Part shown: positions 1-16,625 of the stretch, in pieces
How positions within the stretch are numbered: position 1 is the stretch's first letter
Layout: each line of letters starts with the position of its first letter
Assembly (NCBI GenBank): GCA_003971905.1
Contig: RSEE01000129.1
Location: 1-64,000, forward strand
Direction of reading: 5' to 3'
DNA length: 64,000 bases
Source: Moniliella sp. 'wahieum'
Lineage: Eukaryota; Basidiomycota; Moniliellomycetes; Moniliellales; Moniliellaceae
Position numbers and translations under genes: made by a program
Notes under the pieces: model-generated
The model's database searches: none
Told to the model about the DNA's origin: nothing
What the model saw: the letters and a program-made list of their open reading frames with translations, nothing else

Positions 1-505
1 GGGAGAGAGCCGAGGCGATAGCGAGCTACCCGAAGGGGGAGAGTTATGCCGAGGCGATAGCGAGCTACCCGAAGGGGACAGAGTTATGCCGAGGCGATAG
101 CGAGCTACCCGAAGGGGACAGAGTTATGCCGAGGCGATAGCGAGCTACCCGAAGGGGACAGAGTTATGCCGAGGCGATAGCGAGCTACCCGAAGGGGACA
201 GAGTTATGCCGAGGCGATAGCGAGCTACCCGAAGGGGACAGAGTTATGCCGAGGCGATAGCGAGCTACCCGAAGGGGACAGAGTTATGCCGAGGCGATAG
301 CGAGCTACCCGAAGGGGACAGAGTTATGCCGAGGCGATAGCGAGCTACCCGAAGGGGACAGAGTTATGCCGAGGCGATAGCGAGCTACCGAAGGGGACAG
401 AGTTATGCCGAGGCGATAGCGAGCTACCCGAAGGGGACAGAGTTATGCCGAGGCGATAGCGAGCTACCGAAGGGGACAGAGTTATGCCGAGGCGATAGCT
501 CGCTA
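1..505. repeat. 40-bp tandem repeat array
   Basis: About twelve near-identical units run head to tail, beginning before the window edge. Unit starts fall at 41, 81, 121, 161, 201, 241, 281, 321, 361, 400, 440 and 479. Three units are 39 bp, lacking one C in the CTACCC stretch. The unit contains GAGGCGATAGCGAGCTACCC. The period is not a multiple of three, so the array is not coding in a stable frame. In the last unit (about 497-507) the TAGCGAGCTA core is replaced by its reverse complement. The array directly precedes the 28S remnant. It could be an rDNA spacer or subtelomeric satellite. Confidence 0.95.
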
Positions 506-609
506 CGAAATCGTCCGCTCTATGCAGCATATGCCCTCCGTTTTTCGATTGGACCACCGTTCAAAAGTTACACCCCCCCATCCCTAACCCTACCCACCCC
601 GACCCACCC
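506..609. other. Junction between satellite array and 28S remnant
   Basis: This C-rich linker contains AAAAGTTAC (about 573-580) and then CCCTAACCCTA (582-592), nearly two units of the common fungal telomere repeat in CCCTAA orientation. In an intact 28S gene, AAAAGTTAC is followed at once by CCACAGGGATAACTGGC. Here about 30 bp of C-rich sequence lies between AAAAGTTAC and AACTGGC. No upstream 28S sequence is recognisable in the linker or the array. Confidence 0.5.
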
Positions 610-722
610 AACTGGCTTGTGGCAGCCAAGCGTTCATAGCGACGTTGCTTTTTGATCCTTCGATGTCGGCTCTATCATGCCGTAGCAAAATTCGGCAAGC
701 GTTGGATTGTTCACCCACCAAT

Positions 723-767
<45 letters not shown>

Positions 768-1141
768 ATCCTACCGTAACAAGCGAGTCGACAGTAGTTC
801 CGGCGAGTACGAGAGGAACACCGGGGCCGGGCCTCCAGTTGAGCACCTGTCCGACCGGGCAGAGGTGCGCAGCCGGCCCGCCGAGTAACACCTGAACGCC
901 TCTAAGGTGGAACTCGTGCTGGTACGCTCGCATGTGCGCTGGATGGGTACCAATAGGCGCAAGCCGTACACCACGGGGGGGTCTCTGTGGCGGGGCGACG
1001 CCCCACCACACGCCCCACAATATACACTTGAAGCACACTGCAAATCCCCCGCATACGACGGGGCATGGTCCGAGCGCCGTACGCCGTAGAGTGGGCTTGT
1101 TCCCACGATCGGCTGAAGCCCATCTCGGCACCTCTGATTCC
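610..1141 (+). rRNA. 28S (25S) rRNA, 3' end only (5'-truncated)
   Basis: Landmarks of the large-subunit rRNA 3' region are easy to read: AACTGGCTTGTGGCAG at 610, the GATGTCGGCTCT block near 661, GCGTTGGATTGTTCACCCAC near 699, the sarcin-ricin stretch AGTACGAGAGGAAC near 807, CTGAACGCCTCTAAG near 890, and a final ACGATCGGCTGAAGCCC block ending in CTCTGATT near 1138. Everything 5' of the AACTGGC element, including the conserved ACAGGGATAA, is missing. Several normally invariant stretches are shortened: GGCTCTATCAT lacks about four bases and AGTTTATCCTAC is altered. It is either a truncated remnant at the edge of the rDNA array or a misassembled unit; as it stands it could not give a working ribosome. 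Confidence 0.9.
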
Positions 1142-1569
1142 CCCCCTCCCTCGGGAGGGGGGTTCCTGACCAAGTCCCAACCCTACCCCCGAAAAAATAT
1201 GGAAAAATAGCGCGCCTGCGGCGCAAGAAAGAACGAAAAGAGGGAAAGAAAAGAGGGAAGACTGCGTGAGCGGCGCCGGACGCTCTATCAGGTTTGAGCC
1301 ATACCCTTTTACTTGCCCCGTTTTCCCCCCCGTTTTACCCCGCTGCGAGCACCCCCAAACCCTACTGACCACCGCTCGCTCCACTGCGGCGAGTATCCCC
1401 TGGGGGTGTCGCTAGGGGGCTCCCTAGGGTTTCCCTAGGGTTCTCCCTTGTGGATTCTCCCTCCTCCCCCCCTCCCCTCCCTTGTACTCTCCTACTGGGC
1501 TAGCCCCAGTAGGGTTGCCCCTTGTCAATATACGCCCCCCCCCATACCCCCCCTCCAAACACCCTGTGT
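1142..1569. other. rDNA intergenic spacer between 28S and 5S
   Basis: The stretch is pyrimidine-rich, with C runs and repeated CCTAGGG(T/C)TT elements near 1423-1442. There is no ORF with recognisable content. It lies between the 28S 3' end and the 5S gene, as IGS1 does in many basidiomycetes. Confidence 0.7.
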
Positions 1570-1687
1570 ATCCGCGGCCATAGAACTGTGAAAGCACCGC
1601 ATCCCGTCCGATCTGCGAAGTTAACCACAGTATCGCCCAGTCAGTACTACGGTGGGGGACCACGTGGGAATCCTCGGTGCCGCGGTT
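1570..1687 (+). rRNA. 5S rRNA
   Basis: The 118-nt gene matches the basidiomycete 5S pattern: GGCCATAGAACTGTGAAAGC at the 5' end, then GCATCCCGTCCGATCTGCGA (internal promoter region), AAGTTAACCACAGT, and GGTGGGGGACCACGTGGGAA. The terminal stem pairs ATCCGCGGC at the 5' end with GTGCCGCGGTT at the 3' end. It lies on the same strand as 28S, a linked arrangement common in Basidiomycota but not universal in fungi. Unlike the 28S remnant, it looks complete and foldable. Confidence 0.95.
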
Positions 1688-1688
1688 C

Positions 1689-1693
1689 TTTTT
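1689..1693 (+). terminator. RNA polymerase III terminator of 5S
   Basis: A run of five T residues immediately follows the 5S 3' stem, the usual Pol III stop signal. Confidence 0.85.
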
Positions 1694-2562
1694 GCCAACT
1701 GACCCTCTGTAAGTACCCCTCTCCGCCCTCCTTTTGCACACCCACCCTCCATCGGCAGGGCCCCCCCCGTACTAATACACCCCGCCCCCATCGGCACCGT
1801 TGCGGCGCTACACCCCATTCTACCCTCCATCTTCGACCCCCCGCCCATGCCCCACAACTCTTCCCCCCGCGCCCCCACGCCGCCCACACCTCCGTCGCAC
1901 CCCTCTCCACTTCGTTCTAATACCACTTGGCCGTACCTCCAACCATTGAGGAGCTATAGCACTTCCCCCGCATACTTCCCCCTATAGAGCTCATACATAG
2001 TCGCTGCACCTACCACCGCCCCCCCTCCGTAACCGATTGGGCCCGTATATATTCGATTTGCGTCCGAGGGCAGCATCGTGCTTCCGTCGGCACTGTTCAC
2101 CCTATAGCCTCGAAGCGCGGCTTGGAATTATAATTAACCCTAGTTCATTCTGTCGCTGCGGATTCGCAACCCTAGTGCCCCGTTTGCCAGTGAACTGCGC
2201 TGGTTTTGGGGCCTGCCCCCTTCCTCTCACCACCACCACCACACGTATGCCAAGGCATCGCCCTGACCACCACCTTCAGCATGCGTGTTACCTCTGTCGG
2301 CTGAGCTCCGCGACGTGACCAATGCCGGGCCATGCCCGGCATCCTCCCAACCGGTGCTCATTTCTCTTGGCCACTCGCCCCCTTCCACAACACAGTCTTC
2401 CCCATCCAATTGCCATTTGTGTGCTGGCGAAGCGCCTAAGCCGAGGAGCGCAACATGCCGAACGTCAGCTCAGTCGTCGGCTGACCGTATGCCCTGCTTG
2501 AAGTAACTAGTAAGTCCCCACTATTGCCTCGTTGCTCATCGCTGACTGTCCTGTGTGAAGAT
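1694..2562. other. C-rich spacer, no gene seen
   Basis: This is probably the start of the second rDNA spacer. It is strongly C-biased on the + strand (many CCCCC and CCACC runs to about 1920), then mixed. I see no 18S or external transcribed spacer, and no ORF with family features. Confidence 0.5.
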
Positions 2563-3333
2563 ATGATGTGCCTTGTGGGATGCACGTGTCCCTATCTCTA
2601 CGTTGCGAAACCGCAGCCTAGGGAACGGGCTAGGCAATTATGGCGGGGCAAGAAGGTTTGTACGACGACGATGCACCCTCGACAAAGCGAGTGGCGCTCC
2701 CGCTTCGGGCATGTGGCAGCGGTCTGCCAACAAGTGGCGACCGGGGGCAAGAAGTGCGGCCTGTGCCGCATCCCCCGGCACCAACGCGACCAATGCCAAG
2801 ACCTGATTGATGTGTCGATCAAGGCCATTGCTCGCAAGAAAGGGCCTGAGCAAGTTGAATGCAGCGCAGAAGACATCGTGGCGAACGGGTCGGAGCGAAT
2901 CGAAGTGGCAGCGGCAGCTGCAGCGTTGGATGCGCCCCGGACAAGCGCGCGTGGTTTATCTGGAAAGAATCGTGGTCGTGTTTACTCCTCCTCCGAGTCG
3001 GAGGGGGAGGCTTTTGGCGGCGGTCAAGACGCCAGCGAGGCCCGCGACTGGGGCGATCGTGGTGTCAATTGGGCCGGTACGCCGGTCGACGCGGAGGGCA
3101 GCGCTCAACGGCTGTCTTTGTGCGCAGGGCTGCCGTTGCGGAGGCGGCCTTTACCCCTTGCCGGGTGGATCCGGCGATGGGTTGATGGGTTGGAGTCGGG
3201 CAAGGAAGGTGGGGACGGAGTGGGAAGCGAGGGGGGTGGATCGGAGGGCGAGGAGGCCGACAGCGAGGGCGAGGCGGCCAGCTCGGGGCGGGGGCCTGCT
3301 CTAGGCGGCCTCTGGTCCATCCCCCCCGTCTAG
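2563..3333 (+). pseudogene. Gag-like ORF with CCHC zinc knuckle
   Basis: An uninterrupted reading frame of 256 codons from ATG 2563. Around residues 64-78 it carries CGLCRIPRHQRDQC, which fits the C-x2-C-x4-H-x4-C zinc knuckle of retroelement Gag/ORF1 nucleocapsids. The rest is basic, then acidic and Ser/Gly-rich (about residues 125-250), without a known fold. A short stretch near 2604 (VAKPQPR) recurs near 12874 upstream of the reverse transcriptase, hinting that both belong to one element family. No protease, RT or integrase follows directly. It may be the ORF1 of the same non-LTR element, or an unrelated low-complexity frame. Confidence 0.4.
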
Positions 3334-3368
3334 CCCCTGGCGAAGCTCCTTCCCAGGGCAAAGAAAAC

Positions 3369-3408
3369 ACTGCCATGTTCACCACCGTCGCCGGGGCACC
3401 ATGCTAGC
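3369..3408 (+). repeat. Short direct repeat, copy 1
   Basis: About 40 nt ending CACCATGCTAGC. It is nearly identical to 3931-3973 (differences and small gaps only). The shared segment reads as coding-like (MFT(N/T)VAWGTMLA in one frame of copy 2). Confidence 0.7.
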
Positions 3409-3639
3409 CATCGCCACACACGCTCTCACACGCCGCTCCCCCACCAAGCTCGTCACGTCCACCAACACTGCCACCACAGTAAACGCCACTACTTAGCAGG
3501 TGCGTTGTTGCAGCGTTGGACATACGTCTGCATGCACATCCCCCCTCCCTCCTGCTTCTATTCTGCTCACCACCCGCGTCTACTCTGCGTTGCTCTCCCC
3601 CCCACCCAGGCCCAGCATACGGCTCCACCCATCGGGCAT

Positions 3640-4280
3640 ATGCCATTTGTCGTTCTTGAGGTGAGCCTTTCGGCCATCCTGTTTGCCCGGTACGTGCCGA
3701 CTCTGGCGTATCCCCTTAAAACGCCCTTGCCTCACACCACCGCAAACGCGTCGATCCTGACGTGTTTTTCCTCTCTCTCTTACTATAGCGGATTCTTCCC
3801 TCGTGACCACTACCGCCAGAGCATCATGGTCCCCGCCCTGCTCGACAACCCACTGCCCATCCCGGGGGGAACTGACGAGCCTGACTGGGAAACCCGGCCA
3901 CGTCAAGTGATCCGGGCCAAAGGGGATAAAACAGTGCCATGTTCACCAACGTCGCCTGGGGCACCATGCTAGCGGGGATGCCCTTGTGGAACATCACATA
4001 CGAGTCAATATCATAGGCGCCGACCAACGCGACCCTCGATGTTATTGTCTCGCCACTGTCCATCGCCGGCCTATCTACCTGCAACCCGCCAAGAAACGGT
4101 TTGCCACTGCGTACGAGCGACTCTGGCATGAAAGTGGTGGCAAATGGCCGCTGCAGCCCTTTTATGAGTCCCCATCGGCCCTAATACCGCCCTGGCCCAG
4201 CTCTGTCTAGCGCAACTGAGTGCCGATGACTATGCCCCGAATCGGCAGTGGTTGGACGAACGGCTCCCCCAGCCCTAGCG
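3640..4280 (+). pseudogene. Decayed coding-like segment with an intron-like block
   Basis: A plausible intron (GTACGT near 3690, CTGAC branch near 3759, TATAG near 3788) separates short open stretches. After it, frames change repeatedly through coding-like text such as YSGFFPRDHYRQ and LQPAKKRFATAYERLW, with in-frame stops in between. I do not recognise the product. It sits just upstream of the repeated family and may be its leading part or a separate relic. Confidence 0.25.
3931..3973 (+). repeat. Short direct repeat, copy 2
   Basis: Second copy of the 3369-3408 sequence, about 560 bp downstream in the same orientation. It suggests an internal duplication in the decayed element. Confidence 0.7.
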
Positions 4281-5041
4281 ACTCTGGATGATCTCAAGAA
4301 GCACGATCAAAACCACAATCTCTGCCACAGTTGCTGTCCTGGCTCGACTGTATCGGTACGTTCGATGACCCGTCCATCCGTTGGGATGCTCTTCTTCTTC
4401 CTTCCTGGCACCCCGCCGCGGTAACAGGTGCGACGAAAGGGGGTGAAAGGAGAGAAACAGCGCGAGGAGGAAGACTTGCTAACCCGCACATCTCTCAGCA
4501 GGAGCAGATGGGCACCATCCCAACTCTCACAACTGCGTCAGATGATGCACTATTCCCGTCTTGGTCAGCACACCACGGGGGGGTGGGGACCACAACGTGT
4601 TACAACAACTGGAATGATACGGAGGTCCGACTGGCGTATCTGGTGACCAAGAAGGTACGTATATGATGATGATCTTTTCAGGATCGTGACGCAATCCGAC
4701 TAGAAAAGGAACCGGAGGGGACGATATACTTACTGGATACACTTTGCCTTATCAGTTTGACCAAGCTTCGCAAGATGCCGAGCACTGGACCGCCAAGTTG
4801 TTTGTCGCCATGGAAGGCACTGCCCACCCCCCAAAGCAGCAGCTCCCTTGAATAGTAGAGCTACCTTTGGCTGGAACACTATGCATGGCTCAGTGTTGAC
4901 TAGCACCTCCGTGCTTCATCCCTTGCCGCCTCATCTACCTTGCCCCAGCTACGAATGTTCCTCTTGACTGGGATACCCGGGCGTGGCAAAGCTGCCGTCG
5001 GCACTGTTCGCGTAGGACTGTCTCTGCCCTGCTGGCCTACG

Positions 5042-8000
5042 TTGTGATGGCGGTACGTTACCCACGTTCTCTTGTACTGTCCAAATTACTGACAACCCAA
5101 GCAGCTCAAACACCGCACCAAGGAACCTGCCTGGATCAATACCCCTTTTCCAAGCATACGAGCGTACGCGGTGGCCATGGAGGCACTGCCCCACTTGACG
5201 ATGAGCAGCTACTGTGGCGAAGAAAGTACCCGCTCCACTCCCCCTTCGGTGGGGTCTGCTCGGACGATCCTGATTGCCATTTGGCCGGGCAGGGACGTGC
5301 GAAGGGGATGTCGGACCTGCATCCGGGTCTTTTAGCGGCCGGGCGCCGCCCTACGGGATAGCCAGCTGCTTCTGGGCAACACAGCGGACGCCTTTAACGC
5401 CGTCTGCAGCGATTCCGTCTGCAGTGCGGGTCTGGAGCGACTGCTGCTTGTGCGAAAGGGAGAGAGACTAGGTTGGTAGTTTTTCTTGGCCGCAACGAGA
5501 GATGTTAGGCGACACACAGCGAGCACCCCGACGAACAACAAACAAGCGACCACCTCCGCGCTCGGCGCCCTCGCGGAGTCCGAGGAGCAGCTCGCAGGGC
5601 AACGCCATGGACATGGCCTCGACGCGAAGCAGCTGCAGAGCATGGTGCTGGGCGGGACAACGGCCAAGGAAGGGGGTAGCCAAATGGCTGCGGCGACGGG
5701 GACAACGGGGACGACGGCGGTGAAGGCGAGAGGGGGAGACGAGACGCGAGGGGAAGCAGGATGCGCGACCAAAAGGCGCACTAGGTACGCTGCGTTCCGG
5801 ATTGGCGGGTCGGTAGACAAGGCGCCGCTTGCTTGGTGCGCTGTGCTGCCGAGCGTGGCAAACGCCTACTGCTGTCCCCAAGAATCGGCAGTGTGGGTTG
5901 GTTCGTGGCCAGGTCCGGCCGGTAAGGACGGGCCAGCCAAGGAGGGGGTACGTGGGTCGGGAAGCCACGCGCGGCGAGGGTCCAGTCGCGGGAGTGTGGT
6001 GCCGATATGGGTGCAGGTGTCCCCCTCGGCACAGCGCTGGGCCGCTCGGTTTCGCGGCGAGCGTTGCGTCGTCGCGTTGCGGCCGCCGCGTCGGTTGGCG
6101 CGCCCACGCAGTTGCAATTCATCTACATCGGCTGCGGCCACCACCTACAACCCTAGCTCCGCGCCGAATTTAATCTCGTCGCGTCTGCGCGGCTTTTGCT
6201 TCTGCGCCAACCAGCACTGTGGGGCCGCCGCTGCAGCTCGTGTCCTAGCTTTTTCTCCTCTCGCTGTGCACCAAGGCGGATGCGTGCTCATGGGGGCGGG
6301 GCCCCGCTTCTTGCTGCTCATCCTTGTCCATGCAGCGCTCGATACGAGGGCGCGGCTGGGACGCAGGCCTAGACGCGTCCCAGGCCTAGGCGATGGTCTG
6401 CAGCAGCATGCCGAGCAGGACACGCTGTTCCTTCACCCGCCCACCTAGAGTCGTGGGTACGACGAATCGGGCCTTGCCTGCAAACGTGAATCGTGTCTTC
6501 CCGAATCGGCCGCTTCTGTTCCAAGCGCGGTCGACATCGTGCGTGGCGGAATGCAAATCAACCTGAAGATGGCCCATCCATGGGGTCCTGACAACTGGAC
6601 TGTGCGTGTGGTGGCAACGAGGGCGGCAGTATGGATCGCCCTCTTCCCTTTGCTGGGCAGCAACATGCATCATGCACATCTCTCAGAGCCAGCAGCGCCC
6701 CAACCAAACGCAACACCACTCGCGGATGATTCATTTGCTGGTATTTGCCGCCCTCCCATTTGCGTTGCTTGCCACATTGCCCAACGGCAGCGCGCCAACC
6801 TCACTCCTCGATGGAGCGCCGACAGCCCGCTTGTATCGATTTTAGTTGTCCCCCCAAATCGGCCGTGCTTGGGTTCCCATGAGTAACCATTTTCCACAAA
6901 CCGGCTCGAGGGCAACTATCGTGCCCAGGAGAAGTGGACCCATTACCTCTGAACAGTTGTGCGTGCGTTTGGGCTCGTCGGAGTGGGGTGAAGCAACAAG
7001 TTTTTGCCACATCAACCTTTGGAGTATTCCTGGCATGGGTATGAGCTTTACCTTTGCAACGCGGGTGCCAGCAATGACAACATTCCCTTTTGCTAGCAGT
7101 TGCGCTGGTAAGGTGGGATTGGATATCGGGCCCTCCATTGCTGTGAGGCTGCACGTACCGCTGCTTCCTCCATCGACGAACGAGGCTGGGCTCGTATCGT
7201 TCATGTCCCCCATGGCGGTGTTGCGACCAAGACGGGGTTACGCTTCCATCAAGGTACACTGTGACGCGGTGTGGCATCTAGTTCTTCTGCTTCTGTTGCG
7301 TTTACATCCGCAAAAGCCTGTCGCGCCGCCGCCTTCCTTTCGGCCTTACGGCCACGCCGAATTGCTAGACATGCGAATCCTTTTTACGCTGTCTTGCGAG
7401 GCGTTGATACCGCTCTACCGACTATGTGTTACTCTGGTACGAAAGCACCCATGTCTTGCTCTGCGGCGATGTACTGACCAGCTCACTAAACAGGTACAAA
7501 TATGCCTGCCGGAGCCGAATAGCCGATGGAAACAAGTAAGTGGTCAGTCCGCCATCTGCAGAGGCGTCCCTTCGCACCAAATTAAACGTCACGACGGGCA
7601 GCGGCAACCTCGGATGGTGGCGGGGGGGTTGCCAGGTCCCGCCGTCCGCCTGGCCTGGGATCGTCCCCAATGAACACAATGGGCACGCTTTGCAAGAGAG
7701 CTTGAGGTTCATTATAAAGACGCGAACCAAACCATTGCCAGCTTATACCGCGTCGTTGTGTCGATGAAGAAGGAGACGCGCATCCGGAGATGGTTTCGCT
7801 CACGCCTGAGGAATGGGGGGCGGCCTGGTGGTATGAGACCAACAGGATGAAAAGAATTGGTCCTACTGATCGTCCCTCATGATGTGTTTGGTCGCGATGC
7901 ACACTTCTCTCAGGGATTACCGATCCAGGATGGGCCCAGCGCGCCAATTTCTTGGTGTGGATGTCGATGCTTGTACGTGGTCCTTGTGCTTCTTGTAGCC

Positions 8001-8670
8001 CAAGTTGCTGACATCTATCATTAGCCAAGCGCAGCATCGGAGGCAATCGGGCCGGACGCATCATGCAGCCCTTCAACTCGTCACGTCAACGCCCCACAGT
8101 CGTTCAAAGTGCGAATTGAGACGCACGCCGACACGGCACTGCCCTGTTTGGTTATCGGCGCTGCACCACAAGCCAAGCAGTCCGGATTCGCACTCCCCGC
8201 GGTTCCGCCGACAAGGAAGGCCCCAAGTTGCTATCGAGGAGCAAGTGCTGTTCGCTGCTGTTTTGTTATGCGGGGCCGGTACAGACGTGGAGAACGGGTG
8301 CGGGGGACGAGCGGCCGCAGTGCGTTGCCTTTCGCACAGCCACAGCACTACGAAAGAAGATGGGGGTCGGCGGCGACAGGCTTGCCTGCTCCCAGAGAAC
8401 GCGTTTGCTGACCGAGCAGGCCTGCCCAGCCGCAGTTCTATCGCTTCACCGAGCTCGAGACCCGGCCTGTCATGACCATTTAGGGGGATGATGGGCGCCG
8501 CATCTCGAACCCCTGAAGAGGATGCAGATGGTGTGGTTAGCGTCAATGAGCCTCACTCTCGATTGGATATTGAGGATTGATGCGACGCTTGGTCCGCCGC
8601 GCTTGCCGTTCGGGTGGGCTGTCGACCACCCCCAAACCCAAGCCGTGTCGGAGTGAATTCTCAGCCTCGC
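5042..8670 (+). repeat. Intron-bearing repeated family, copy A
   Basis: The longest copy of an unrecognised family. In order it has an intron-like block (GTACGT 5051, ACTGACAACCCAAGCAG), a segment reading roughly GNTADAFNAVCSDSVCSAG near 5376-5430, a segment with GGMQINLKMAHPW near 6543, a segment near 7090-7500 with IKVHCDAVW, an intron-like GTACGT...TTGCTGAC...TTAG block (7975-8024), and a 3' segment near 8490-8670 sharing CCTCACTCTCGATTGG with copy B. Frames break repeatedly. No domain is recognised. The same order of segments in copies B and C shows these parts belong together. Confidence 0.6.
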
Positions 8671-9477
8671 ATCTTCTGTCTGCCACTCCCTGATCATTCG
8701 CCACTCCCTTATCATTTACATTTCCTCGTTCCCCCTCCCCCTGTCTTCGGCCCCCCGGTGCTGCTGGGCCGGGTACCCACACGGCGAGCTCCTGGTACGG
8801 CCCCTGCGTCATGCCCTTGTGCATGCAAAGACAGCGGCTGTCATCGCGGCAGTCGTCGTTGGAGCGGCGGTCCAGTTAGTCGCTCGAATTGTCTCGTTCT
8901 ATCTGTCCCGCAACAATCACTGTTCCCGCGAGCGCATGTGTACCGCAGGTCCTAACCAAAAGAAGCAAGGCGGTGGGTATGCCATCCCGTCAACCTGGTC
9001 TGGCTTAATGGCCTCCTGACTATTTTTGTCCCGAGTCGATCTAAGCTGTCTTGCTCGTGCTTGCTCGTGCGTTACGTGCACATCTAAGGCACATCATCTT
9101 GGGGAACTCGTTGCTGGCATTGCATCCCGGGAGACCCAAACATGTCCATCTATTCATTGCGACTGCCCGACATATATCGCAGCGATCCCGCCACAGACGC
9201 CTCTGAACCCCAGCGCCCAAGGAACATCATTCGCCACCAAACGGCCGCGTGGCGACTGCAATGTTGGGGACTGGTTCCGCTATTCTTCCAGTGCAGCGCG
9301 CAGCTTCATGAGCCCCTGGTACTGTTTGCGTGCAGGCTGTAAACGTTGTCCATGCCCTACAAATGTGGTGCGATGTCTCCGCAGTTACCAACGATAGGAT
9401 AGCTGCTGCCGATATGGGCGGTTTATCTGCAACACTTGATGTGCACATTCGTTTCGACCAAGCTTGCTGGCTCACAT

Positions 9478-10960
9478 TGTGGTGATGGTACGTTGCCCCT
9501 GCTCTCTTGTACTCTCTTGTGGTGCGAAATACTGACAACCCACGCAGACCGAACACAGTACCAGCAGTAATTGGGACGAACGTACTAGCCCAAGGAAACT
9601 GGTTGCATCAATGCCTCTTATCCACCGCATGCGACGCGGACGCGGTGAAAGTGCAAGCACTGCTCCGCTTGACGCCGCCCTCGCAAGGCAAGTGCGCGCA
9701 CTGCTCTCCCCTCGTTGTACGGAAGGCGCGGGTTGGGCTTTGCGCAGCAAGGGACGTGCGCAACCAGTGTCCGACGCGCTCCACGCGCCTGCTTCAGCAG
9801 CTGTGCACCAGGCCTGCGTGGAAGCGACCTGTGCCTGGCCAACACGGCGGGTGCCTTGCGCGTGGGAAGCGCTCCCTGCTGCAGTGCAAGTCCACAGAGC
9901 TGCTGCTCATGACAGGGGAAGGGGGGCTGGGTTGTGATATTCGTGGCCGCAACCACAAAAGGCGGCGGCGGACGCAAGCCAAGCAGCCCCGCAATCGGCC
10001 GCAATCGGCCGCCTCTGCGCGGGACGCGCGAGAAAGGGCTGCTCCCGCCGCGGGGTTAACGTTTAACGTGCGTTTGCCGCTCGCTTGGCGCGCAGAAGTT
10101 CCTCCACATTGGCCGCCGCCACACCGCCCAAGCCTGGCCCCGCGCCAATTCTGGCCTGGCTGCGTTTGGGACCGGTTTGCCTCTCCACGACCAACACGCT
10201 GGGAATCTGCTATGCCTCGTGTCCTTGCTTCCTTCATCCTTGCGCTACCCGCCAAGCCGGATGCGTGCTCACGGGGGGGCACGCCCCTGGGCACCGCTTT
10301 TTGCTGTCCATCCTTGTCGATGCAGTACCCGAACTGGCTGCGAGAAGGCGGTTGCGTTACCGAGCTCGACACGATGCGCAGCGGTGGAATGCAAATTAAC
10401 CTGGAGATGACCCACCCATGGGATGCCATACCTTTGATGGTGGTGATGCCTGTACGTGTCCATTTCCTTCTGCTGGAACCCAAGTTGCTGACGTTTCACC
10501 TTAGCTGGACGGAGCACCAGAAGCAATGTGTGCGCACATAAGCGGGCCTTAACTCGTCGCGCCCACGTCCCCCCAGCCAGTTGCGCAAGGCGCCAATGCA
10601 GGGAATATTGGCAAAGGCACGGTTCCCGCTCCTGCGGATGTGCCAGCAGGGAAGGCCTCTACGGCTGGCGAAGATCAGATCCTGCTCGATGCTGCTGTGT
10701 TGAGGGGCGGGTGCGTAGAGCAGGTCCGGGGGGGGTGGCTGCTCTTCATTACCCTTGTTGGATCCCTGAAGAGGATGGAGACGGGATTGGATAGTGTCGA
10801 TGAGCCTCACTCTCGATTGGGTACTGATCATGGATGTGACTGCCTGGCTCGACACGCTTGTTGGTCAGGTGGACTGGCGACCACCACCCAACCCAAGCTG
10901 TGCCAAAATGAATCCTCCACCTCGCCTCTTTTGCTCGGAACTCGCAGCAGGGCTGTGACC
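9478..10960 (+). repeat. Intron-bearing repeated family, copy B
   Basis: Collinear with copy A but shorter. It has an intron-like block at 9487-9547 (GTACGT...ACTGACAACCCACGCAG), the segment reading LCLANTAGALRVGSAPCCSA near 9835, the KGGGGRKPSSP segment near 9960, GGMQINLEMTHPW near 10384, an intron at about 10451-10505 (GTACGT, TTGCTGAC, CTTAG), and the 3' segment 10755-10950. The section of copy A at 7090-8000 is missing or unrecognisable here. A possible further fragment lies at 11390-11450 (TGTACTGACC...CAG, then a GTACAG(G)TATGC stretch). No known product. Confidence 0.55.
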
Positions 10961-12838
10961 CCATTGCGTCTCCCTTTGTTCTCCCCTCCCGAAGTCGCGC
11001 CCCCCACGCCTCCGCTGCCCGCACAGACCGGCCAGGTCCTGACCCAGTATGACTGGGTGTTCCTTAATATGGAACCCGCATTGATCCCCGCCCAAAACTG
11101 ATCGAAAATGGGTCGAACTCTCGGCCTGGTCCCAGCAGCAGCCCCAAGCTCTTCCCCAACTCACTCCCGGTGCTGGCCGCAATGACCTCCACGACGCACA
11201 AGCCGTTCCGCACAGCGAACGCATTCCTCATCACAACCTTACTGCCGCCGACCATCAACGTCATTCATACTAAAGACGAAAACAATTATCCGCACGACCC
11301 TACTCAATACCAGGGCCATGATTCTCTCTACTGTTGTACATGTACGACGACGACCCCCACTCACACTTCTCTGGTATGATGTACTGACCGACGCGCTTGT
11401 GCAGGCCGGAACGTACAGGTATGCAGACGGAGATGGATCATCAAGAGTGTCCGAGCACTAGTGCAACCACATGGATCAAACCAGTGCCCGCTTTTCATTT
11501 ATATGTGGGAGATGTTAATGGTTCCTATTGAAGCGCCAAGTCGTATGCCTCCAAGCTCCGTCTCGTCTTGGCTCCAATATCCTGCATATTCGAGTACCCT
11601 CTCCCCTCTAATCCCAAATGGGAACCAAGTCCAAGGGATAGTGCGGCAAATTGTGCGTCGGCTAGACATTCGTTACAGAAGGCGATCGAGGCGAAGGGCC
11701 CGAGTGAACAAGAAAAGGTTCCAATGCGTAACGTGGCTCGACTTAAAAACACAATGTGCAAGGTGTGCAAACGCAACGTGCCAAGAGCCTGGACTTCTGC
11801 ATTGGGGATTGTATCACCTGACTGATGCTCTTGCGAGTCAACAATGGGTCAAACCACTCGCTACCCCTGCCTGAAATCCCCCAGTTGCCCCACTGGTTGT
11901 TCATTTTGCGGTTCGTGCTTGCAGCAACCCCTCCGCCATCTGTTTCGCTCGAGACGAGAGAAACGTATCTGGCACAGGCCAAACTCCCCTGGGTAGGTGA
12001 GCAGCAACGGCACCAGGCAAGTCATCCGGGGCGACAATCGGGGCAATGTGGTCGGTCAATGGTAGGACCAAGTTGGCATCCCGATGTCCGTCGCTTTGGG
12101 CAGATCAGTCTTGCTCTCCTCTTGGCTTTGCTCCACAGGCCAACGCATCGACTTGGGCAGCGAGGCGAACGTATGGGTGCACCAGGTGGGTGATCGGCAG
12201 CCAACGAGAGGCATTCGAGCCCGCCCCTCGTCATGGCACAAGGAAACGACGACGGTTTTGCTCGCCTGCCAGGATACGAAGCTGCTGCCTCCTGTGACTA
12301 CATCGCTCGGCTCCTGGCTGATCGAGAAAGCAGAAGCGCTCGATCCCAGCTGGAGGTCGGTGGTGCCCTCAAATCCAGCGTCCACATTTCCTGGCCACGG
12401 GGTCATGACTGGGTTGCGGGACATTCTGGCCACTATGGTAGAGCCCGAGCCATTCAACAACACTCAGCGAGTCGGGCGCTGCTACGCCACTATCACCCGC
12501 ACTGAGATCGCGATGGCAAACGCAGGTGCTCCAAAGAGCCCATCCATATCCAACGGCCTAACCCCTTCGACCTTCGAGACAAGACGCGCGGCGCCTATTT
12601 TACGTCGTATTTGCCATCCGCTCGCCGCCGTCCTGAGGCACACGCGCTGTGTAAGGAGATGAACACCTTGTTCGACATAGAGGCCAAAAAAAAGCACCAG
12701 CGTACAATCCTTGTGCAACGAGTGCGTAGCTCTGTTCCCTTGGTCTTCGCTGCGGGTGACTCCACCTGTGGTTACACATCCGCTGTGCAAGCTAAGGTAT
12801 AAGGATCACTGCATCCAAACGCGCCACCCCTGTAAGAC
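10961..12838. other. Unassigned stretch with weak ORFs
   Basis: It contains an open frame of 192 codons at 12084-12662 (+) and short frames nearby, none with a recognisable domain, plus intron-like CTGAC/CAG motifs near 11390. Coding status is undecided. It separates copy B of the repeated family from the reverse transcriptase relic. Confidence 0.3.
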
Positions 12839-14837
12839 ATGGATCAAGGTGCTTTGCTTGATTTCCCTGCCGACCACGTTGCAAAACCACAGCCTAGGAG
12901 TCGGACTATGGTACTTTGGCTGTACAAGAATGCAAGACTAGAAGATGTGTATTCGCAGAACGTTCTGGACTGCGTGCGCTACTTTGGCTACGAATGTGTC
13001 CAAGGCGCTCTTGAATGGAGATGGGGCGGGCAATGGCAACTTATTCCTTCTCCGCATTTCCACCGCCACCTTATCCTCCGCCTTGCCCGCCGTCTGGAGG
13101 TCGTGGCGAATCATGTGCCCCCTTCCGTGATACGCGTGAACTATGCCGGTGGGAACTAGCGTAACACCAACAGCTCAGGCGCGCACGGGCTACGCCATGC
13201 AGTCGGTGCTCAGCCCAGTCTGGCAGCCGAAGCGGACCACCCGGCAGTTCCGCAGTCCCGATTCGGATCCATTGTGGAGTGCGCTGTGCTCTCGCCGCCG
13301 GGCAGCACAATGGTGCGGCGTCAGTTCAAGGAGGCGGCCGGTCGATTGGGAAGAGCGTATTTGGATCATCCCGATGATTACGCCGTGTTCAACCTGTTTG
13401 CCCTGTCGAAGGCGGATTTGCGGGGGGGGCTCTTCGGCCGACGTTGTGCCACCCTGAAGGCGTATCCGGAGGTGGCTTGACCGCCAACTATGGAGACGGG
13501 CTCTGCAGAGCGCCAGCGTTCCGATGATTTGACCCATGCACACCGCTAGGTCAAAGAGGGAATGCTGGGGCGTGCGGCGCGTACGCTGCGTCCCCAGGAT
13601 GCGGCGGTGGGGTTTGGGCCGGAAACGGTTGAGGCCCTGGGTGCGAAGCATCCTGCAGGCCCGAAGAACCCGCTGGCTGGTTTGGTGGTTCGGCAAATGT
13701 CGGAGCGGGACCCGCCTGGTTAAACAGGCGACACCGCAGCGGCGAACGCCGGTGAGCCACCCCCCCAATGGTTTTGGAGTTGGATGATAAGGACATCTAT
13801 CGCGCGGCAAGCAGCTTCTCCCGGGACGTGGGCGGAGGCGTGGGCGGATGGTCGGTTTCTTCTATAGTTGGCTTTAAAGCGCGATGACTTTAGAGCGGCT
13901 CTCAAGCCAAGGCGGTGCCATGTTTCATGGGACGTGCCCGGGTGCTCAGCTGTTGTGCACCAGTAGGTTGACGGCACTTGCGAAGCCTGACGGTGGAGTG
14001 AGACCGATCGCCTGTGGTGAACTTTACCGCGTAATGGCCAAGGCACTTCTTCTTTATTGGGATGTGGTTACTCCTCTGCTCCACACGCAGTTGGGCGTCA
14101 AGTCCAAGGGCGGGGTGGAGCCGATTGTGCGGCTTATGGATCGTTGGTTAGTGGGGAAGAGAAGGACCCGGCTTGGGCCAAGTTCAACTATGTGCTGTCG
14201 TTGGACTTTAAGAATGCGTTCAACTCGATCGACCGGGCAGCGGTGGCCCAGGCGGTGAGTGACTATTCGCCCGAGCTCCTTCCTTTCTTTCGTTGGGCTG
14301 ATGGGAAGCACACCCAGTTGGTGTTGGGTGGTGCAGGCGGCTTTGGAACCCTCCTGAGCCAGCAGGGAGTGAGGCAGGGCGACCCCTTTGGGCCCTTCTC
14401 TTCCGGCATCCGGGCTGCTCGAGCAGGCGCAGCGCACGTTGGGCGACGATGGGTTGGTGGTGTCCTATTTGGATGACACTTATGTATTGTCGCGCAATGT
14501 CAATGCGTTGCAGCTGGTCTCGCGTGTCGTGGCGCAGAGCAAGACGGGGCTGCAACTCAACCTGAGCAACACGAAGACTATCTCGACGCAGAAGTTGCGT
14601 CTGGAGGGCGGCACCTTCCTCGGCTCGTGCGTGGGTCCCAGAGAAGCTCGGCTCGCTTTTCTGCAGGCAAAGGTGGAGCCTCAGGCGGCGCTTTACCCCT
14701 CCTTGCACGGGATGTCGCTGCAGGACCCCTTGCTCTTGTTGCGCGTGGCTCTGCAACAGAACCTGCGGCACCTGCTCCGCTCGATGCAGACGGACGACCT
14801 GGCGGACCAGCTCCACCAGATCGCTGGTGCGAGGTGA
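12839..14837 (+). pseudogene. Reverse transcriptase of a non-LTR-type element, frameshifted
   Basis: Frames from about 13274 on give successive RT landmarks. An N-terminal region comes first (NLFALSKADLRGG). Then come the KHPAGPKNPL segment near 13640, KPDGGVRPIACGE (fingers) near 13985, SLDFKNAFNSIDR (motif A) near 14200, LLSQQGVRQGDPFGPF (motif B) near 14350, and SYLDDTYVL (catalytic YxDD, here YLDD) near 14463. A thumb-like helical tail runs to the stop near 14837. At least four frame changes and stops (near 13700, 13960, 14080, 14398) make it non-functional as read. The catalytic aspartates are still present. No endonuclease or RNase H is evident. It lies between copies B and C of the repeated family and may have inserted into it. 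The GGVRPIA motif occurs in non-LTR RTs of fungi and other protists; I cannot name the clade. Confidence 0.85.
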
Positions 14838-14974
14838 CGACAATCGGGGGGGCGGATCCGAGCTAGGAGGACGGTCAGAAGTGGCACACGGTTCTTTTCT
14901 CCTTGCCAGCCCGTATGGGTGGCTTAGGCGTTCGGGCGCCACAGTGGTGGCATTCCGGTTGGTTCCATCCACAG

Positions 14975-16625
14975 CTACTGGTAAGGTGCGATTGGATATG
15001 ATGCCTTCCATTGCAGTAGGGAGCTCGTACCCCTGATGAGACTGGCTCACATCGCTCCTGTCCCCCAGGGTGGTGCCGTGGCCAAGATGGAATCGACGCT
15101 GTGATCAAGGCACACCTGGACGCGATGTGGTATATTGTCGGTCCGCTTCTGTTGAATGTTCACATCCGACACGCCTCTCTCGCCCCCACCTGCCTTGCCG
15201 CCTTGCCACCACGCCGAAGTGCCAGACGTACAAATCCTTTTTCACACTGTCATGCACGATGTACCCACAATCTGTTCATCAGGTACAAAGCCACCCGAGC
15301 CTTGCTGTACTGTACTGTACTAACCAGTGCACTAGACAGATCCGAATACGCTAGACGTGGAGAATAGCCGATGGAATGAGCAAATGGTCACCCCGCTATG
15401 TGCAGAGGCATTCCCCGCACCAGATTAACCACCCCGCCAGGCAACGACAACCTCGGATGGTGCCGGGGCAGGTTTGCCAGGGCCGTACCAACGTTGACCG
15501 GGGGGGCGCTGCAGATGAAAACAACGGACAGGCGCTGCAAGAACTTGAGGTGCAAGATAAAGGCATGGATCGAGTCATTACCAGCTTCTGCCGCAATGTG
15601 ATGCATGAAGTAGGGGCTGCGCCTGCAGATTGCCTCGCCCGAGCCGAGGAATGTTGATCAGATATGGGGGCGTGGAGGCAAACAGGATGAAGAGCTGTGC
15701 CGCTACTGATTGTCCTCCGGGATATGCTTGGCCGCGGTGCCCGCTTCTCGTTGTGCTTACCGACCCCACGATGGGCCCAGCGCCACCTTTGTTGGTGTGG
15801 ATACCTGGACGTGGTTCATATCCTTCTGCGGTGGCCCAAGTGGCTGACATTTCGGATTGGCCAGACGCAGTTGGAGCGCCCACATTCGTGCAGCCGTTGT
15901 CACATCAGCGTCCCTAAGCAGTCGTGCAGGGCGTTCAAGGAGAGAGTACCTCCACTGCGTGCTTTGGCCATAGGCAGCAGCATTGGCAAAGGCAAGGCAT
16001 GCTTCGCACTCGCCCGCGGCTTCGCCAACCGCGCAAGAAGGCGGCGGCGCACGCAAACCCAGCAGCCCCACGAACAACCGCCAGTCGACCGCCCCCGCCA
16101 CGCCGCCCCGAACAGCGGCTGTCCGTCGCATCCGCGCGTGGCTCATGGCGGCGGAGTGGGCTTGGCCAACCGGCTGAGGGTCCCCGTTGGGGCTGACGGG
16201 TAACCGCCTGGCTTGACGCGCCGAAGCAGTCGCAATTCATATATTCATCCGGATGGCTGCGGCCAGCCGCCTATAAGCCTGGCACCGCGTCCGATTTGAT
16301 CTCGTCGCGTCTGTGCGGCTTTTGCTTCTTCGCCACCAGCCATCACTTGCGGACCGCTGCGGCCCTCGTGCCTTCCTCTCGCTGCGCACCAAGGCGGATG
16401 CGTCACGGGGCGCACACTCCTTGCGTCCGCTTCTTGCACCCCATCCTTGTTCTTCAACACCCGAACTAGCATCGAGCGCGCGGCTGGGTTAGCGAGGTCG
16501 ACACTGCGTGGTGAAATACAAATCAACCTGAAGGCAGCCCACCCAGGGGGTGCCGTAACATGATGGGGGTGATGCCCGTACGTGTTCATACCTGTGCTGC
16601 CAAACCAAGCTACTGGCGTTTCACA
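14975..16625 (+). repeat. Intron-bearing repeated family, copy C
   Basis: It begins with GGTAAGGTGCGATTGGATAT (14981), matching copy A near 7110. It continues through an intron-like block ending CTGTCCCCCAG (15070), the IKAHLDAMW segment (about 15100), an intron-like GTACTAACCAGTGC...CAG block (15316-15340), and a segment matching 7540-7720 and 7860-7990 of copy A. Without a break it then passes to the KPSSPTNNRQ segment (about 16045), which in A and B is the leading part, and on to the QINL segment (near 16520) and a GTACGT...CATAG intron (16578-16629). The order implies a tandem arrangement in which the end of one unit is followed by the start of the next. Confidence 0.55.

Follow-up and report, generated by a model that had tools for sequence, protein, structure and literature searches.

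In Magnaporthe oryzae, the elements MoTeR1 and MoTeR2, which have a putative restriction-like endonuclease (RLE), occupy TTAGGG chromosome ends with their 5′ end towards the telomere, and head-to-tail MoTeR arrays, decayed relics, duplications of end sequence and ribosomal DNA (rDNA) truncated beside the telomere also occur (PMC7367193). The FoTeRs of Fusarium oxysporum are telomere-associated elements of the non-LTR type (lacking long terminal repeats), present as live and decayed copies together and reported to co-localise with telomere-linked helicases (PMC12857005). Here we analyse the left end of contig RSEE01000129.1 (C129; 164,555 bases) of the basidiomycete Moniliella sp. 'wahieum' (eukaryotic assembly GCA_003971905.1; 69.5 Mb, 223 contigs), a stretch of 64,000 nucleotides referred to below as the window, and in particular a set of repeated blocks with intron-like sequence between about 5 and 17 kb. 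We consider it fairly probable (about 0.72) that these blocks are subtelomeric repeat wreckage without detectable protein-coding constraint, spread by DNA exchange between chromosome ends, and that they do not form a living gene family.

The locus resembles the MoTeR ends in its elements with a putative RLE at TTAGGG chromosome ends, their 5′ end facing the telomere, head-to-tail arrangement, relics, duplicated end sequence and truncated rDNA on the telomere side; it differs in that MoTeRs lie in telomere repeats with TTAGGG between them, whereas the fresher element here lies in large-subunit (LSU) rDNA and, on contig C158, reverse transcriptase (RT) matches alternate with ~220 bp of LSU (PMC7367193). 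With the FoTeRs (PMC12857005), it has in common telomere-associated non-LTR elements in fresher and decayed copies, but no helicase was found among the 10 forward-strand window frames searched with Pfam. In a search of a partial literature library, which brought up MoTeRs, FoTeRs and an R2 review, no listed title described this arrangement. Y′/X-type subtelomeric repeats are mosaic blocks common to chromosome ends in one orientation; the blocks described here are likewise mosaic, on many ends and in one orientation, and differ by the same lack of a helicase in the 10 frames.

Five segment types (s1–s5) recurring in the same orientation had been listed in a preliminary description made from the letters alone. 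When the first 20 kb were compared with the window by BLAST (E ≤ 1e-5), most of the named pairs recurred far beyond chance, although the s2 pair of copies A and B (5335–5580/9790–10020) missed the threshold and only B/C passed for that segment (9959–10013/16038–16093). The strongest pair was s4 (7105–8034/14978–15870; 69%, E 1e-88); s5 matched at 8511–8678/10764–10933 (78%), and s1 at 5030–5120/9465–9563 (73%) and 5118–5200/9590–9674 (76%). For s3, direct matches joined A to B (6118–6335/10099–10325; 6545–6584/10383–10422), A to C (6086–6360/16204–16488; 6524–6586/16491–16551) and B to C (10237–10499/16374–16624). Unit A spans s1–s5 at 5000–8750; this and all window features below lie on the forward (+) strand, the satellite alone being unstranded. 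Unit B (9465–10933) looks like an internally deleted copy, since the tail of s4 recurs in it (7966–8099/10445–10576). Copy C comprises s3 (16204–16624) and s4 (14978–15870), the latter joined to a truncated RT by a junction that recurs at other contig ends.

Intron-like blocks were said to sit at matching places in the copies, as indeed they do. The pattern GTACG..CTGAC..YAG occurs six times on the forward strand between 2.4 and 17 kb and never on the reverse strand, against an expected mean of 0.17 (maximum 3) in 60 dinucleotide shuffles, and the six occurrences are copies of three blocks. Block I1 lies at 5053–5104 in unit A and 9488–9547 in unit B; I2 at 7437–7493 in unit A, identified by conservation as well as by pattern, with a related copy at 11342; and I3 at 7973–8024 in unit A, where the 3′ AG is poorly conserved, and 10452–10504 in unit B. 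Further, decayed copies lie near 15283 and 16578. The retention of this pattern on one strand also bears out the claim that the units are not retrocopied complementary DNAs.

Copies of these sequences are concentrated at chromosome ends in one orientation, as a subtelomeric mosaic. A genome search with unit A, in which 40 of 103 candidates were scored and the counts are thus lower bounds, gave at least 67 matches: 58 of the 67 scored are no more than 35 kb from a contig end, all of them pointing inwards, six are on contigs shorter than 20 kb and were not judged, and three are exceptions considered below. These 58 occupy 25 distinct ends among contigs longer than 20 kb; the orientation is nearly always the same across the scored matches, which include 10 full or near-full copies that could be aligned and are 84–96% alike, the query itself aside. 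The stretches at 2.4–4.9, 8.7–13.1 and 13.1–18 kb are likewise repeated at many of the same ends in varying order; on C29, for example, sequence of 10.6–13.0 kb follows sequence of 14.3–16.0 kb. The head-to-tail joining from which a tandem array had been proposed is therefore partly right, but the order changes from end to end, giving a reshuffled mosaic instead of a clean tandem repeat. Similarly, the proposed subtelomeric gene family is subtelomeric by the placement and inward orientation of its copies, but the absence of a clear codon phase speaks against a protein family that is still living and had gone unrecognised.

No purifying selection at the codon level was found in the units. An alignment of 14 copies of unit A showed no clear codon phase of substitutions (largest chi-square 6.5 over 49 overlapping windows), and its gap events comprised 374 of length 1 mod 3, 116 of 2 mod 3 and 58 of 0 mod 3, a count in which single-base assembly errors may inflate the events that are not multiples of three. 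Ten more diverged copies (67–87% alike, piecewise) likewise gave no clear codon phase and indels mostly not in multiples of three; non-synonymous to synonymous ratios ranged from 0.53 to 1.75 and overlapped across all six frames, with no frame standing out; and the D-type block, which contains the I2 copy at 11342, showed no clear codon constraint. Retroelement genes of this genome, used as positive controls, did show a codon phase: the window RT compared with an element on contig C2 (described below) gave 239/129/147 substitutions by the codon phase of the C2 element, and two retroelement loci, L060 and L061, compared with each other gave 11/14/34. Six subtelomeric copies of the window RT showed no consistent phase, the most uneven being 20/41/30 (L049).

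These results bear on the idea that the units are a family of subtelomeric protein-coding genes, until recently living and now mostly pseudogenes, a history to which the long frames (351 aa at about 9486–10541, the longest, and 322 and 275 aa in unit A), a relic of a gene in the neighbouring 4.1–4.8 kb segment and the intron-like blocks would all be suited. However, the codon phase is not clear even between copies 67–77% alike, and the 351-aa frame is less conserved as protein than as DNA (protein/DNA identity 67/85% on C53, 58/85 on C201, 57/87 on C118, 56/85 on C3, 51/82 on C2 and 45/80 on C219, the DNA values being for wider stretches than the frame). In addition, Pfam and NCBIfam gave no match in the 351-aa frame; Pfam, NCBIfam and solved-structure searches of the unit frames and s4 gave nothing usable; and two protein searches across the genome, the counts from which are lower bounds, returned no plainly intact homologue. 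We regard a recently living family as distinctly improbable. The coding-like words noted earlier, GGMQINL and IKxHxDAxW, are present in the DNA, but no coding signal was found in them; because the variable sites show no clear codon phase, they amount to conserved DNA that offers no evidence for a living protein. The proposal that the blocks are cargo of an intron-bearing DNA element gained no support, and no transposase appeared among the 10 forward-strand frames that make up the whole scope of the Pfam search in this region.

Judged by similarity, the recognisable proteins near the units are relics of an R2-like retrotransposon, the reference for which is a 4.05-kb element inside an LSU gene at C2:4794–8845. 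The relics in the window comprise an N-terminal cysteine-rich region (2698–2886; 52% over 65 aa to the C2 element, E 6e-17), a degraded RT open reading frame (13253–14926; 42% over 399 aa, E 5e-77, and 58% over 148 aa, E 2e-50; Pfam RVT_1 E 0.014 and 0.026, below cut-off), a degraded, putative RLE region (12240–12629; 33% over 180 aa, E 3e-18) and, probably, the degraded 3′ part of an RT domain (11753–11957), for which two adjacent tblastn pieces are in order, in different frames and weak (E 0.002 each). A further relic, from upstream of the RT domain, lies within s4; this 60-residue stretch was matched to the C2 element by tblastn in copy C (15421–15600, E 6e-6) and in copy L038 (E 4e-8), and was placed at 7573–7745 of unit A by alignment. 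A minus-strand match 'N' near 6087 in L005, L021 and L023 (E about 6e-5) was judged to be chance and dropped.

Penelope-like elements are known intron-bearing retrotransposons, and the position of the s4 relic between I2 and I3 could be taken to suggest that s1–s5 are the 5′ and linker parts of another intron-bearing lineage. We consider this very improbable: the intron pattern is absent from the C2 element and from the coding parts of L060 and L061, and the s4 stretch may stem from recombination.

The C2 element is flanked on both sides by about 219 bp of duplicated LSU (4575–4793 and 8846–9064 of L059, the left end of C2; up to 248 bp by BLAST), and in this copy, the one examined, insertion was thus into LSU and not into telomere repeats. 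Within it are zinc-knuckle-like cysteines, an RT whose RVT_1 match (E 1.2e-5) does not reach the curated cut-off, and a C-terminal region that we take as a putative RLE from domain order, cysteines and a motif recognised by eye; Pfam gave no RLE match in that region. Its frames are interrupted, with the RT across two frames and a stop between the RT and the C-terminal part, which may be real or an assembly error. L060, a relative in the interior of the C2 contig, has an open frame of 961 aa (RVT_1 E 7e-17) whose closest solved structures are R2 proteins (E 4.5e-8). The likeness to R2-type elements consists in this RT resemblance, the insertion of the C2 element in an LSU gene, and its C-terminal cysteines and putative RLE. 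Unlike R2, the C2 element is not at the exact R2 site: its flank starts at about 1502 of the longer LSU sequence L040, about 530 nt downstream of what we take to be the R2 site motif, at 968. The ~219-bp target duplication is unusually long, compared with 126 bp for the R9 elements of rotifers.

On C158, RT matches (756, 5018 and 9325) and LSU fragments of ~220 bp (2738, 6981 and 11208) alternate over the span 756–12305, which we read as probably three head-to-tail elements at a contig end. The first ~9 kb of C2 and C33 have LSU and RT matches at identical starts (4571, 6939 and 8842), and may be either a very recent chromosome-end duplication or two haplotypes.

The window opens with a telomere-associated satellite (1–606), a 40-bp unit array (9–506 by Tandem Repeats Finder) with a telomere-like tail. 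It is joined, at about ...AACTGG|CTTGTGGCAGCC, to a 5′-truncated 3′ part of an LSU rRNA gene (600–1131; Rfam RF02543 span 480–1131, alignment to the LSU of L040 from 613), and a 5S rRNA gene follows (1570–1688; Rfam RF00001). The satellite/LSU join (window 1–640) lies near the point in LSU at which the downstream flank of the C2 element starts, and a match on C112 crosses the same join. Scraps of LSU also lie directly upstream of the cysteine-rich relic (2587–2655; 91% to L040 LSU 1030–1098, E 1e-20) and between two element relics (12864–12898; 86% to L040 LSU 1032–1066, E 8e-5). LSU and 5S pieces were found at many contig ends in the genome search.

Four exact TTAGGG-type repeats occur at 14 places in the genome and a reversed-pattern control at 58; because the control is commoner, the count alone proves nothing. 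Seven telomere-pattern loci were extracted, each at a distinct match; six lie at contig ends (C8, C26, C34, C65 and both ends of C88) and the seventh, on C75, does not. The satellite of the window, which is also present at C45, adjoins CCCTAA repeats in four of the seven (C34, C65 and both C88 ends) and is not in C8, C26 or C75. At the right end of C45, CCCTAA repeats are followed by this satellite and then by unit-A sequence, so that telomere adjacency is shown at one end. The window's own telomere is missing; given the telomere loci at contig ends and the shared satellite, the window probably starts just inside a chromosome end.

Where the copies lie, how they are oriented and that they lack clear constraint can be read from the copies themselves. 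Under the repair-copying account that we favour, retroelements would insert into LSU genes adjoining telomeres and then decay, and breaks there would be repaired by copying other chromosome ends, through break-induced replication or unequal exchange. Such copying would spread the wreckage together with captured gene pieces, including intron-like parts of the captured sequence. The outcome would be head-to-tail copies, reshuffled in order but facing one way with respect to the telomere, and the segments would need no function of their own to persist.

Conservation of the splice signals is the observation that this account leaves open. A GTACGT-like 5′ site is present in 26/26 (I1), 24/26 (I2) and 29/32 (I3) of the collected copies, with GTGCGT, GTACGA and GTAAGA allowed and 12 D-type rows of 38 dropped beforehand for I2; for I1 the site is GTACGT or GTGCGT throughout. 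This collection was centred on the blocks, and conservation was therefore retested on alignments not centred on them, using blocks of the same shape. Slid along the unit, such blocks reached or passed I1 in 66/3472 places, I2 in 0/3468 and I3 in 128/3471. With the in-window copies B and C left out (26 rows), mean conservation over 33 positions of the 5′ and branch sites was 0.964 versus 0.831 for random placements, none of which, in 20000, was as high.

The unit might accordingly be read as a gene for a transcribed, spliced non-coding subtelomeric RNA, for which TERRA- and ARRET-type transcripts provide a model, kept at many ends by selection on splicing. We retain this alternative because of the one-strand pattern and the extra conservation of the signals, and the lack of clear codon constraint would suit it too. 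However, the aligned rows are related and the blocks were first picked because a reader had noticed their recurrence; only one of eight copies retains the 3′ AG of I3; the D-type copy of I2 is also readable as open protein, in a region without codon phase; and sites outside the blocks are also conserved, with means of 0.86 for four GTACG sites (one at 0.97) and 0.89 for two CTGAC sites. On these signals a spliced RNA gene appears unlikely. The corresponding broader picture, in which many ends would carry a spliced non-coding locus with selected splice sites and drifting exons, maintained by exchange between ends where retroelements inserted in rDNA also accumulate, is similarly doubtful.

Several points weigh against subtelomeric wreckage spread by exchange. 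Pure decay does not predict the conservation of the splice signals, nor that of two short islands of unit A outside the blocks (5485–5495 and 8501–8520), which are fully or nearly fully conserved in the compared copies. The phase test loses power where frames are shifted, because the RT control drops to 138/189/188 when counted by the frame-shifted phase of the window. Most of s1–s3 and s5 is without an identified ancestor, and the RT frame of the C2 element had no match among solved structures. Three of the 67 scored unit-A matches (on C54, C48 and C151) are exceptions to the placement, and the opposite orientation is seen in at least three RT matches close to contig ends (C12, C14 and C69). 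Finally, the copying mechanism and the order of events are what we infer, and were not observed.

The opposite-orientation RT matches (C12:983486, C14:6373 and C69:369878) are each flanked by two pieces of the 2.4–4.9 kb repeat. A 0.5-kb piece of this repeat (window 3415–3927) also lies, at 92% identity, in the interior of C31 (L065, C31:411000–413700), 271 kb from the contig end. Within the same stretch, the relic of an unnamed gene (4099–4829) shows about 70% identity across 870 bp with longer copies carried by C7 and C55 (L062 and L063), which are about 38 and 24 kb from contig ends, respectively, and by eye have several exons. The GTACG..CTGAC..YAG pattern is not in L062 or L063. Pfam, NCBIfam and solved-structure searches for the product of this gene gave nothing usable, and an identity as indoleamine dioxygenase, considered at first, had no Pfam support and was dropped.

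Overall, these data describe chromosome ends of one eukaryote in which telomere or satellite is followed by rDNA pieces and then by retroelement and gene wreckage common to many ends. The situation is MoTeR-like, with at least one fresher element in LSU rDNA instead of the telomere. The long duplication around the C2 element and the conservation of the splice signals are both directly testable.

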